10,146 bases of DNA, from NCBI GenBank assembly GCA_905235955.1, contig CAJONN010000069.1, positions 1 through 10,146 of the forward strand, read 5' to 3'. Below, one piece after another: positions 4,361 through 8,101 of the stretch. The position numbers and the translations under genes are program-made. Numbering within the stretch: position 1 is the stretch's first letter; each line of letters starts with the position of its first letter. The notes under the pieces are model-generated. The model ran no database searches, was not told the DNA's origin, and saw only the letters and a list, made by a program, of their open reading frames with translations. The DNA comes from an uncultured Marinilabiliaceae bacterium. GTDB lineage: Bacteria; Bacteroidota; Bacteroidia; Bacteroidales; Marinilabiliaceae.

Positions 4361-6310
4361 TTATTTTACAAACGATTGAGTAACAGCAGCTACCTCTTCG
4401 TTCACATGTTTTGCAAAATCTTCTATTGTCATTACGCCTTGATCGCCTCCGCCTTGCTTGCGCACGCTAATGGTGTTGTCTGCAGCTTCGCGTTCACCAA
4501 CTATAAGTAGGTATGGTATGCGCTTGAGTTCGTTGTCGCGTATTTTTTTACCTATCTTTTCGTTGCGGTCATCAATGACGGCGCGAATATCGTTATTTTT
4601 CAGAAGTTTTGCAACTTTTGAAGCATATTCGTTATATTTTTCGCTCACTGGCAATATTACGGCTTGCTCTGGAGTGAGCCATAATGGGAATTTACCTGCT
4701 GTATGTTCTATGAGCACTGCCACAAAACGTTCCAAGCTACCAAATGGTGCTCGGTGTATCATTACTGGACGATGTTTCTGGTTGTCAGAGCCCATAAATT
4801 CAAGGTCGAAACGTTCAGGCAGGTTGTAGTCTACCTGTATGGTACCAAGCTGCCAACGACGTCCGATGGCATCTTTCACCATGAAGTCGAGCTTCGGACC
4901 ATAGAATGCTGCTTCACCATATTCTACAACGGCTGGCAAACCTTTCTCTTTGCATGCTTCGATGATTGCATTTTCAGCACGCTCCCAGTTTTCGTCGGTT
5001 CCGATGTATTTTTCGTGATCGTTTTTGTCGCGCAATGATATTTGAGCCTCAAAGTTTTCAAAGTTGAGTGCTTTGAATACTACACTGATGATGTCCATTA
5101 CGTTGAGGAACTCTTGTTTTACTTGGTCTGGGCGACAGAAAATGTGTGCATCGTCTTGTGTAAAGTTGCGCACGCGTGTCAGTCCGTGAAGCTCGCCACT
5201 CTGCTCATATCGGCTTACGGTGCCAAACTCAGCTACGCGCAATGGGAGGTCTTTGTATGAACGTGGTGCATTGCGATATATGGTACAATGGTGAGGGCAG
5301 TTCATTGGTTTGAGCATATATACTTCGCCCTCTTCAGGTGTGGTGATGGGCTGGAAGCTATCTTTGCCATAGTGATCCCAGTGACCTGATGTAATGTATA
5401 GGTTTTTGCTACCAATGGGTGGTGTGAGCACTTCTTGATAGTCGTAGCTGTTTTGTATTTTACGCAAGAATTCTTGCAAACGTAAGCGTATTGCCATGCC
5501 TTTGGGCAACCATATTGGCAAGCCTTTGCCGACCATATCAGAGAACATAAAAAGGTCCATCTCTTTGCCAATTTTGCGATGGTCGCGCTTCTTAGCCTCT
5601 TCAAGGAGAGTCAGGTAGTCGTCAAGCATTTTTTGCTTGGGGAAGGTGATAGCATAAAGACGTGTGAGCTGTGGACGTTTCTCATCGCCACGCCAATATG
5701 CGCCTGCTACGCTCAGCACTTTCACGGCTTTAATTGGCTCAGTGCTTGGTATGTGCGGACCACGACAGAGGTCGGTAAAGTTGCCTTGTTTGTAGAGGCT
5801 TATTTTGCCGTCTTCGAGTTCGCTGATGAGTTCTACTTTATATTTTTCGTCTTTATCGCCAAAATATTTAAGCGCATCGGCTTTGCTAATGTCGCAACGC
5901 ACATATTCGCTTTTGTTTTTGGCGAGTTCTTTCATTTTGTCTTCAATAACTTTGAGGTCGCTATCTTTGATTGTTACGCCTTCACCTGGGTCAACGTCGT
6001 AGTAGAAGCCATTTTCGATGGCCGGACCTATGCCAAATTTGATGTTGGGATAGAGTTCTTGAAGTGCTTCGGCCATAAGGTGCGCTGATGAGTGCCAAAA
6101 TGCATGCTGTCCTTCTTTGTCTTCCCACTTGTAGAGTTTGATTGCTGCGTCTTCATTGATTTGACGGCTGAGGTCGTACAACTGACCATTCACTTCAATA
6201 ACGAGAACCTCTTTTGCAAGTCGGGGACTGATAGATTCGGCTATCTGCATGCCGGTAATGCCTTGCTCATATTCACGTATTGAGCCGTCAGGGAATGTTA
6301 TTTTTACCAT
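4361..6310 (-). CDS. thrS: Threonyl-tRNA synthetase
   Basis: This 649-residue class II synthetase charges tRNA-Thr. Domains in order are TGS (about 1-62), the editing domain (about 63-235), the catalytic core (about 250-535) and the anticodon-binding domain (about 545-640). Editing residues His73, His77, Cys182 and His186 are all present, in [11 protein letters not shown] and LCRGPH. The catalytic zinc ligands are Cys338 (KPMNCPHH), His389 (QDDAHIF) and His519 ([14 protein letters not shown]). The frame is open to a TTG at 6370, but that codon lies in the promoter -7 box and the TGS domain begins at [10 protein letters not shown], so 6310 is the start. No SD is seen. It heads the conserved thrS-infC-rpmI-rplT operon. 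The leader carries a tRNA-Thr anticodon-arm look-alike, suggesting autoregulation as in E. coli. Confidence 0.98.
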
Positions 6311-6334
6311 GTTTTGAATAAAATATGTTGTTAT

Positions 6335-6351
6335 GCCACATACAACGTGGC
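6335..6351 (-). promoter_or_regulatory. Putative ThrRS operator: tRNA-Thr anticodon-arm mimic
   Basis: On the minus strand this reads GCCAC-GTTGTAT-GTGGC: a perfect 5-bp stem closing a 7-nt loop, the exact geometry of a tRNA anticodon arm. In tRNA numbering the loop is G32 U33 U34 G35 U36 A37 U38. It has the invariant U33, the threonine anticodon UGU and a purine at 37. It lies 24 nt before the thrS AUG and about ten nt after the likely transcription start. In E. coli the thrS leader uses such an anticodon-arm mimic to bind ThrRS and block ribosome entry. Function here is inferred. Confidence 0.65.
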
Positions 6352-6367
6352 TTATTTTTTCAAGGTG

Positions 6368-6375
6368 CAAAGTTA
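6368..6375 (-). promoter_or_regulatory. Promoter -7 box for the thrS operon
   Basis: Read on the minus strand this is TAACTTTG, a full match to TAnnTTTG, and it continues GCACC exactly as the rpsF promoter does. The start of transcription should fall near 6362, giving a leader of about 50 nt. I see no convincing TTTG -33 box at 19-21 bp; the nearest option is TTAG, 22 bp upstream. Confidence 0.72.
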
Positions 6376-6466
6376 TATAAGTTATGAAAAATGAGCTCTA
6401 ACTTTTTTCACTTTTTTCGCACTAATTTTTATGCTTAAGTTCAAATAAGAAGTGCAAAAAATAGTT

Positions 6467-8101
6467 CTAAAAGGTTTTTGTTTTCAGATGTTCGCCTGTT
6501 TTTTCACTTATTGTGCGATAGTATTCATCGTTGTATCCGGGAAATTGAGGTGCAGCCGGATAATTATCATTGGTGCGCAAAAATTCACCTTCATCGTTGG
6601 TTGGGTGAATATTGCCATCAAGAAATTTCACCATAATAAATTCGCCCAATTTGCGCCACTCTTCAATAGTATGTTGTGCCACATTCTGAGCTATATCGTT
6701 GCAACGTTCTTCGATGCTTTCTGGGTCATCCATTTTCGCCAAGTCAGAATCGGCTATGATTACGCCAATCTCAAATGTTTCATTGAGTTTTTTTTGTACT
6801 TTTCTAATGTCGGCTATCATTTGGTCGTATCTCGAATATGCCATTTGTGCCACCCAGTTGAACACCCAAAATGCTGAATCCCAACTAAATTTGAGCATAT
6901 TGGCATTTTCGTGGCTCAACTCCAAAGGCACTATTGTTGTTTTGCAATAAATTGGCATTAGCACAGATGTGTTGGCATCGTCAACTCCAAACCACAATAT
7001 GCTCAAATTTGTTTGGCGCATTTGGCTTACAAACCAAAAACCTGTTTGCTGTGTGGCTATGGCTCTCTCATGAAAATACTCTTGGTTGTCAACTTTATAT
7101 TCCAATGGTCGCCAACGATATGGTACATGATATGGTCCGGCACCAACATCTTGTGTCATGTCTAACTTTGTACCTTCATAATGATCTCGCATTATGTCAG
7201 ATAGTTCGCTTCGGCTGATAAGATGATCAGGCTTGATGTAGAGTGGCATGCGCACATCTTTGCCTTCGAGCCCCAAAGCATATTTTTCATATTTCATCAT
7301 ATCGGCACTCATCAGTCTGAAGCCACTCCAAACGCGTGCATCACAAAAACGAGCTCCACCAAAGTCTATCGGATTATAGGCTGCTGCAAAATCAAAATCT
7401 GCATCTTTCTTACCATTGAAATATCCACGTTTGCGTGCGACACTAACCACATCTTTGGCATAGCGCACATTGGCTTTGTCGGCAAAATTTATCTTTGTGA
7501 TGCGAGCCTGATTGGCATGCCCTGATACGTATCCGTCTGGTATGCGCTGTGCCACCCATACGGCACCCTTCTGCCCTACTCCTTTGCCAAGCATCTCCAT
7601 TATCCACACCTCATTTGGGTCGCCTACTGAAAACGATTCACCTTCGCTACAGTAGCCATATTGCTCCACCAAGTGCGTCATTACATCGATGGCTTCTGAT
7701 GCTGTTTTGGCTCGTTGCAAGGCTATGTAAATGAGGCTGCCATAGTCTATTAGTCCGGTAGTGTCTACAAGTTCTTCGCGTCCGCCAAATGTGGTTTCAG
7801 CTATGGTAACGCCCCACTCATTGATATTGCCTATAACTGAGTATGTATGAGCCACTTGTGGTATCTCACCTAAATATTTACCTGTATCCCATTCATATAT
7901 TTTGAGCATTTCGCCAGCAGCATGATTTGCAGCTGGATAGCGATAAAGTTCGCCAAAGAGTGTGTGAGAGTCGGCGGCATACGAAATCATTGCACTGCCA
8001 TCAGCCGAAGCGCTAGGTGTTATCAAGAAGTTGGTACATGCTAAAGCAGTGGCTGAGGCTACGCTGAGTGCTGCTGTTATACCATATTTCAAAATATTCA
8101 T
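6467..8101 (-). CDS. Secreted C69-family dipeptidase (PepD-like Ntn hydrolase)
   Basis: This 544-residue protein belongs to peptidase family C69, N-terminal nucleophile hydrolases that cleave dipeptides. A signal peptide (1-21, MNILKYGITAALSVASATALA) is followed directly by CTNFLITPSASADGSAMI, where Cys22 matches the family's catalytic N-terminal cysteine. Further family motifs are VIGNINEWGVTIAETTFGG (about 89-107), GDPNEVWIMEMLGKG (about 160-174) and VWVAQRIPDGYVSGHANQARI (about 181-201). Signal peptidase I cleavage at Ala21-Cys22 could itself expose the nucleophile. The protein is therefore probably periplasmic and involved in peptide use. It starts at an ATG behind A-rich ACAAAT without SD, 30 bp after a lipoprotein gene on the same strand. 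No convincing terminator follows. The substrate is unknown. Confidence 0.93.
   Translation of the reverse strand: MNILKYGITAALSVASATALACTNFLITPSASADGSAMISYAADSHTLFGELYRYPAANHAAGEMLKIYEWDTGKYLGEIPQVAHTYSVIGNINEWGVTIAETTFGGREELVDTTGLIDYGSLIYIALQRAKTASEAIDVMTHLVEQYGYCSEGESFSVGDPNEVWIMEMLGKGVGQKGAVWVAQRIPDGYVSGHANQARITKINFADKANVRYAKDVVSVARKRGYFNGKKDADFDFAAAYNPIDFGGARFCDARVWSGFRLMSADMMKYEKYALGLEGKDVRMPLYIKPDHLISRSELSDIMRDHYEGTKLDMTQDVGAGPYHVPYRWRPLEYKVDNQEYFHERAIATQQTGFWFVSQMRQTNLSILWFGVDDANTSVLMPIYCKTTIVPLELSHENANMLKFSWDSAFWVFNWVAQMAYSRYDQMIADIRKVQKKLNETFEIGVIIADSDLAKMDDPESIEERCNDIAQNVAQHTIEEWRKLGEFIMVKFLDGNIHPTNDEGEFLRTNDNYPAAPQFPGYNDEYYRTISEKTGEHLKTKTF

Follow-up and report, generated by a model that had tools for sequence, protein, structure and literature searches.

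What a short hairpin ahead of the threonyl-tRNA synthetase (ThrRS) gene of an uncultured Marinilabiliaceae bacterium does is the question raised by the window, the whole 10,146 nt stretch of DNA analysed here. The thrS gene (4361..6310, minus strand), the proposed source of a repressor as well as its proposed target, is confirmed by a match to TIGR00418 (708 bits), and infC and rplT, recognised by family matches, lie downstream of it, with rpmI between them according to the list of open reading frames. Upstream of thrS, positions 6351-6335 of the minus strand spell out GCCAC[GUUGUAU]GUGGC, a flawless 5-bp stem (G6351-C6347 with G6339-C6335) closed by a 7-nt loop (6346-6340, G6346 U6345 U6344 G6343 U6342 A6341 U6340). 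Numbered as a tRNA anticodon loop this is G32 U33 U34 G35 U36 A37 U38, with U33 at 6345, an anticodon-like UGU (positions 34-36) at 6344-6342 and A37 at 6341. The hairpin begins 16 nt past TAACTTTG (6375-6368, minus strand), which is taken to be a -7-type promoter box on the basis of a consensus of the TAnnTTTG type, and ends 24 nt ahead of the thrS ATG at 6310. The intervening A/T-rich spacer (6334-6311, minus strand) is 24 nt long and no Shine-Dalgarno sequence was seen in it. The arm with its stem, U33, UGU and A37, the box and the thrS start are all found as set out in a preliminary description of this DNA.

The anticodon arms of the two tRNA-Thr species compared from the same genome are GCUGA[UUUGUAA]UCAGC for tRNA-Thr(UGU) and CUUCC[UUGGUAA]GGAAG for tRNA-Thr(GGU), with loop borders set by hand. 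Positions 33 to 37 of the window loop are the same as those of the tRNA-Thr(UGU) loop UUUGUAA, while the stem differs, so that the arm is not a mere tRNA fragment. The exact 17-mer occurs once in its own genome (81% complete) and the other ten matches all carry three mismatches; no site within two mismatches, which might have represented a further target, was found in this assembly.

It is very probable that the hairpin serves as an operator arm through which ThrRS controls the translation of its own gene, as the preliminary description had proposed, and this reading is supported by the enrichment of NGU loops, the stem covariation and the specificity for thrS presented below. The arm would copy the tRNA-Thr anticodon arm as a ligand of ThrRS. 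With ThrRS in excess of its tRNA, the anticodon-binding domain of the enzyme, a homolog of E. coli ThrRS along its length, would occupy the arm, which spans -41 to -25 relative to the AUG, and would hinder loading of the 30S subunit, and free tRNA-Thr would compete for ThrRS and relieve the repression. The transcription start, the binding of ThrRS, the repression and its relief by tRNA are predicted parts of this model. Over its whole length the window ThrRS can be aligned with E. coli ThrRS (1QF6); 1KOG, presumably the structure of the ThrRS-operator complex, is also among the matches. The position of the arm near the AUG is compatible with a block of 30S loading relieved by tRNA-Thr. Two studies describe the ribosomes of Bacteroidia as failing to recognise Shine-Dalgarno sequences (PMC9976891; PMC6847099), and one of them reports a tendency towards less pairing in the region from -20 to +20 (PMC6847099). 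Arms beside or over the AUG fit with occlusion of the initiation region under these circumstances.

Predicted folding contributes little to this argument. The stem is present in both the minimum free energy and the centroid folds, but G32-U38 and U33-A37 are also paired in these, leaving UGU as a triloop. The folding energy is not taken as evidence, since it is only modestly better than that of shuffled sequences (z -1.24; 23 of 200 shuffles equally good). The preliminary description had considered a chance origin unlikely on the basis of a frequency of 1 in 262,000. This conclusion stands on the leader enrichment and covariation, while the figure itself applies per position; empirically, U33-NGU-A37 hairpins with at least 5 bp arise by chance in approximately 0.1-0.3% of 120-nt stretches, as estimated from shuffles and non-leader DNA. 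An alternative GTTGT/ACAAC fold, suggested earlier to act as a mutually exclusive switch, can pair in the window and is not conserved among the three relatives that share the hairpin: L002 could form it with one G-U pair (ACAAT), L003 has no partner strand and L004 retains GCAA only. The switch was therefore dropped.

Among the 15 genomes found for the genus of the window, all of which contain thrS, the hairpin is carried by four, namely the window, L002, L003 and L004, whose ThrRS proteins are 93% identical. The four carriers constitute one supported clade in a FastTree phylogeny of 211 ThrRS proteins. Their 17-nt hairpins align without gaps and differ by a single change from C-G to U-G, and the sequences flanking them have diverged strongly. 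The hairpin is absent from the leaders of L005-L007, the nearest outgroup (85-87% ThrRS identity), and from those of the eight other genomes of the genus. A U33-UGU hairpin does occur in L005, 112 nt before the ATG, and was not counted as it lies upstream of the promoter-like box of that leader (approximately 40 nt before the ATG). Absence from close relatives, named in the preliminary description as an outcome that would speak against an operator, is hence seen in L005-L007 and not in L002-L004, and drift of the loop away from NGU with retention of the stem is not seen in the four carriers. On the ThrRS tree, presence of the element requires 15 changes, with gains and losses pooled, compared with a mean of 34.8 for shuffled labels; the labelling rule, which demands two G-C pairs, scores L061, L063 and L064 as negative despite their 6-bp NGU arms.

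The ThrRS proteins of this genus fall into two separated clades, with 85-93% and 71-73% identity to the window protein, respectively, a split that could have arisen if thrS was replaced by transfer. Four members of the other clade (L027, L029, L112 and L114) have in common a leader hairpin of another kind, GTCAAA[..]TTTGAC, which is located immediately past a promoter-like box and is devoid of NGU.

A broader survey covered 400 thrS leaders of the Bacteroidota, of which 386 remained after removal of identical rows and rows shorter than 60 nt, and 368 after near-copies were collapsed. Each leader was taken to end where homology places the start of ThrRS; in one batch 9 of 149 loci had no ATG, GTG or TTG at this point, and for the phylum-level loci the start often lies elsewhere than the homology-set position. 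A strict scan for hairpins with at least 5 bp (two or more of them G-C), a loop of 7 or 8 nt, and U33 and A37, which was run for all 16 dinucleotides at positions 35-36, returned GU in 40 of the 368 leaders and each of the remaining dinucleotides in no more than two. In 200 shuffles of the same leaders that preserved dinucleotide composition, GU hairpins numbered 0.43 on average and three at most. A stem surrounds 40 of 260 NUNGUAN words, as compared with 10 of 4305 words for the other 15 dinucleotides (Fisher p 5e-42, a value to be read with care as the rows are related and not phylogenetically independent). Similarly, 18 of the 33 GUUGUA hexamers are paired, compared with 1 of 100 occurrences of ten control permutations. 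Beyond the order of the window, the element also turns up in further orders of its class. A TAnnTTTG or TAnnTTCG box resembling that of the window precedes the hairpin in 32 of the 40 leaders, with the arm beginning 7-36 nt later.

In this class of arm the identity bases G35 and U36 are retained, as are U33 and, for the most part, A37, whereas drift is seen at the wobble position. Position 34 is U in 32, C in six and A in two of the 40 hairpin leaders, and when the rule for A37 is lifted, 50 leaders contain a U33-NGU hairpin, with A37 in 40, U in seven and G in three. G35 and U36 are the anticodon determinants of ThrRS, and fixation of these two bases along with drift at position 34 would be expected of a ThrRS that reads positions 35-36 and not 34. 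The G at position 32 of the window loop had been noted as a departure from the usual pyrimidine; the base is indeed G, and it is not unusual in this class, being found in 17 of the 40 hairpin leaders.

Strand and gene controls show the arm class to be specific for thrS leaders in the sense orientation. The same pattern occurs on the antisense strand in one of the 368 leaders. In 2,033,536 nt of non-leader DNA from long loci it was found at 56 places, or 0.0033 per 120 nt, compared with 0.109 in leaders. In 30 genomes chosen for their thrS hairpin, 0 of 29 serS leaders and one of 28 hisS leaders, whose starts were placed by means of family matches, contain a hairpin by the strict rule; without the requirement for A37, one serS leader (L450, with U37) also matches.

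As only one base differs among the four carriers in the genus of the window, covariation is drawn from other families. Seventeen leaders with 7-nt loops were aligned, comprising the window clade and families f118, f119, f147 and f151, and including all five fetched f147 leaders and six of the seven from f151 (L337 being a near-copy of L336). All 85 of the 85 stem cells are paired. This is partly so by construction, because the rows were picked for their stem, a reservation that touches neither the double changes nor the control with a slid partner. Both sides of the pair have changed at four of the five base pairs (C-G/G-C, U-A/C-G, A-U/G-C and C-G/U-A), and sliding the partner strand by 1-3 columns reduces pairing from 100% to 24-38%. 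The 17 double-change cells (5.5 in shuffles) and the covariation score of 0.621 (0.286 in shuffles) each exceed all 500 shuffles, while further pair types are not raised over shuffles (5 compared with 5.8). An unguided consensus fold of the alignment returns the same helix. An alignment of many leaders had been put forward in the preliminary description as the means of seeing covarying stems and an invariant NGU, and both were found: GU in 40 of the 368 leaders, stems that covary and U, C or A at position 34. The arms of the covarying families may be non-homologous to that of the window.

The architecture of these leaders varies. The window clade has one 7-nt arm, GUUGUAN, 18-24 nt before the AUG, and a single arm CCUGC[GUUGUAU]GCAGG is located 11-13 nt before the AUG in L265, L323 and L326. 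Other leaders have one arm with an 8-nt loop, as in CCACC[GUUCGUAA]GGUGG (L267) and GGGCC[GCUCGUAG]GGCCC (L410). Two arms are present in L056 (GCUUGGC[AGUUGUGA]GUCAAGC and AUAAAC[AUUUGUAG]GUUUAU), L070 (both with CGU), L077, L084, L089, L276, L338, L339, L345, L382, L383 and L386. The last seven make up family f150, where arm 1 ends 40-67 nt upstream of the AUG and a weaker arm 2, AAUCAU[AGUUGUAG]AUGAUU or a close variant, contains the AUG inside its 3' strand in 7/7 genomes. The AUG also lies inside an NGU arm in L058, L105 and L158, and an arm ends 0 nt and 5 nt before the AUG in L070 and L089, respectively. No second NGU hairpin was found in the last 150 nt before the window thrS or across its start. 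A distinct Odoribacter-like arm, CUGCG[UACGUAG]CGYAG, occurs in L095, L096 (the same sequence as L143), L104 and L161, with CGU and A37 and with A33 in place of U33.

Under a relaxed criterion (4 bp, 7-9-nt loops and A, G or T at position 37), GU candidates occur in 55 of 314 genomes, spread over 21 of 142 families. The background rises as well, with other dinucleotides found in 2 to 29 genomes (TA highest), and this search was therefore used for family tables only. A candidate occurs in every fetched leader of f150 (7/7), f151 (7/7), f147 (5/5; a sixth genome has no thrS match) and f121 (8/8), in 5/7 leaders of f132, 1/6 of f139 and 4/32 of f1, the family of the window. Fourteen families with at least three genomes each have no candidate under this criterion, the largest being f124 (7) and f115 (6).

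When the thrS leader of E. coli K-12 was scanned in the same manner, accepting GU anywhere in a 6-9-nt loop, the hairpins returned included GUGAUCU[UUCGUGU]GGGUCAC, ending 21 nt before the AUG, and AUUUAGC[AUUUGUUG]GCUAGAU, ending 84 nt before it. From their shape, these are taken to be domains II and IV of the operator; with G and U at position 37, both would be missed by the A37 filter. PMC11088916 describes two hairpins of E. coli thrS, domains II and IV, which ThrRS recognises because they resemble the anticodon loop of tRNA-Thr. The window hairpin resembles this operator in lying just upstream of thrS on the sense strand of its 5' leader, in copying an anticodon arm of tRNA-Thr with U33-NGU, and in its distance from the AUG (24 nt, compared with 21 nt for the nearer E. 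coli arm). Some other Bacteroidota leaders are two-armed like that of E. coli, including 8-nt loops resembling its AUUUGUUG. Unlike the E. coli leader with its two arms, the window has a single arm, which keeps A37 as in the tRNA; no Shine-Dalgarno sequence was seen at the window thrS, and in other Bacteroidota lineages the AUG is located inside the arm. Because there is no second arm, the window element is best regarded as an operator-like variant and not filed as a member of the E. coli type. In yeast, ThrRS and RPC10 reportedly form a further pair of synthetase and anticodon-mimicking mRNA. Binding of an anticodon-like mRNA element has been described for the yeast HisRS (PMC6542539) and AspRS (PMC9976931). 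Unlike the window arm, these three yeast mimics are eukaryotic and involve other mRNAs and another architecture.

Several other explanations of the hairpin can be weighed against the proposed operator. ThrRS might bind the arm and exert its main effect on mRNA stability or transcription rather than on ribosome access. The proximity of the arm to the presumed 5' end of the mRNA, 7-36 nt past the box in 32 of 40 leaders, would suit this, as a bound 5' hairpin could alter decay. Control of initiation is, however, favoured by the leaders with the AUG within an NGU arm (seven in f150, as well as L058, L105 and L158) and those in which the arm stops 0 nt (L070) or 5 nt (L089) short of it, and no sense-strand terminator is listed at the arm or elsewhere within 6250-6520, so that an effect primarily on stability or transcription appears unlikely. 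It is less likely still that the ligand is another reader of anticodon loops, such as a tRNA-modifying enzyme acting at U36-A37. The retention of A37 in 40 of the 50 U33-NGU hairpin leaders could be explained in this way, but the element stands ahead of thrS and not of serS or hisS, and the fixed bases, G35 and U36, are anticodon determinants of ThrRS itself. In E. coli, moreover, exchange of the anticodon-like bases shifts control to MetRS, according to PMC9976931. A chance hairpin, to which its absence from most of the genus (4/15 carry it) and a chance rate of 0.1-0.3% per leader might point, is highly improbable given the family-wide enrichment and its preservation in four genomes while the flanks diverged.

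The remaining alternatives are scarcely credible. Read on the plus strand, the hairpin could be an intrinsic terminator, GCCACATACAACGTGGC followed by TTATTTTTTC, and it does appear in the list of a consensus scan (one found, compared with a shuffle mean of 0.1). No recognisable plus-strand gene runs into it in the list of open reading frames, however, its T-run is not retained in L003 and L004, and the conserved features are loop bases of the sense strand, with the pattern found in 1 of 368 antisense leaders. The terminator was rejected on account of the T-run and the missing gene. In favour of a T-box-like RNA, which would sense tRNA-Thr by pairing with it, is the fact that T-boxes act on thrS in Firmicutes, where a leader RNA likewise controls thrS according to tRNA-Thr. 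Unlike the T-box, which pairs with the anticodon, the window leader copies the anticodon itself, its loop holding the anticodon NGU and not the threonine codon ACN, and no T-box or Thr-leader match to the window was obtained from Rfam at E-values up to 5. The Rfam 15 search of the window gave six matches at E-values up to 5, all below the gathering threshold, and the sole one over the hairpin was a plus-strand MicA hit (24 bits, with a gathering threshold of 41). Eight other Bacteroidota loci gave no Rfam match above the gathering threshold.

The principle of a ThrRS operator is known from E. coli, and no description of one in the Bacteroidota was found in the open literature, to which the search was confined. 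Neither 'threonyl' nor 'tRNA synthetase' appears in the main text of PMC9723704, PMC2864571 or PMC8040213; PMC9723704 refers to a supplementary list of 64 structured 5' regions. Textbook autocontrol by ThrRS through tRNA mimicry was, among bacteria, found described for E. coli only. A counterpart across many Bacteroidia would show an mRNA repeatedly rebuilt as a decoy for a tRNA-binding enzyme, and would provide a natural alignment of presumed ThrRS ligands with fixed U33, G35 and U36, mostly A37, and a drifting base 34 and stem. It would also constitute a testable control mechanism for Bacteroidia, whose ribosomes initiate without Shine-Dalgarno pairing. The chances appear about even that control of thrS by arm mimicry is widespread and fast-turning-over in Bacteroidia, having been rebuilt repeatedly in parallel to the E. 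coli solution, where rebuilding refers to the differing places and copy numbers of the arms (one 7-nt arm, two 8-nt arms or AUG-enclosing arms). If so, the same solution as in E. coli would have been reached in a phylum that lacks Shine-Dalgarno pairing.

Two neighbouring genes of the window deserve mention. The gene upstream of thrS (8101-6467, minus strand) resembles the C69 family dipeptidases (NF033678, 150 bits, below the curated cut-off of 250). The infC frame on the minus strand contains no in-frame ATG, GTG or TTG ahead of an internal GTG. A conserved ATC (4311-4309) in this frame follows AGGAGG (4325-4320), and L001-L007 all share AGGAGG...CTATC. The gene probably has a non-AUG start with a strong Shine-Dalgarno sequence, in a group whose ribosomes ignore such sequences, a situation that recalls rpsU in Flavobacteriales as described in PMC9976891.
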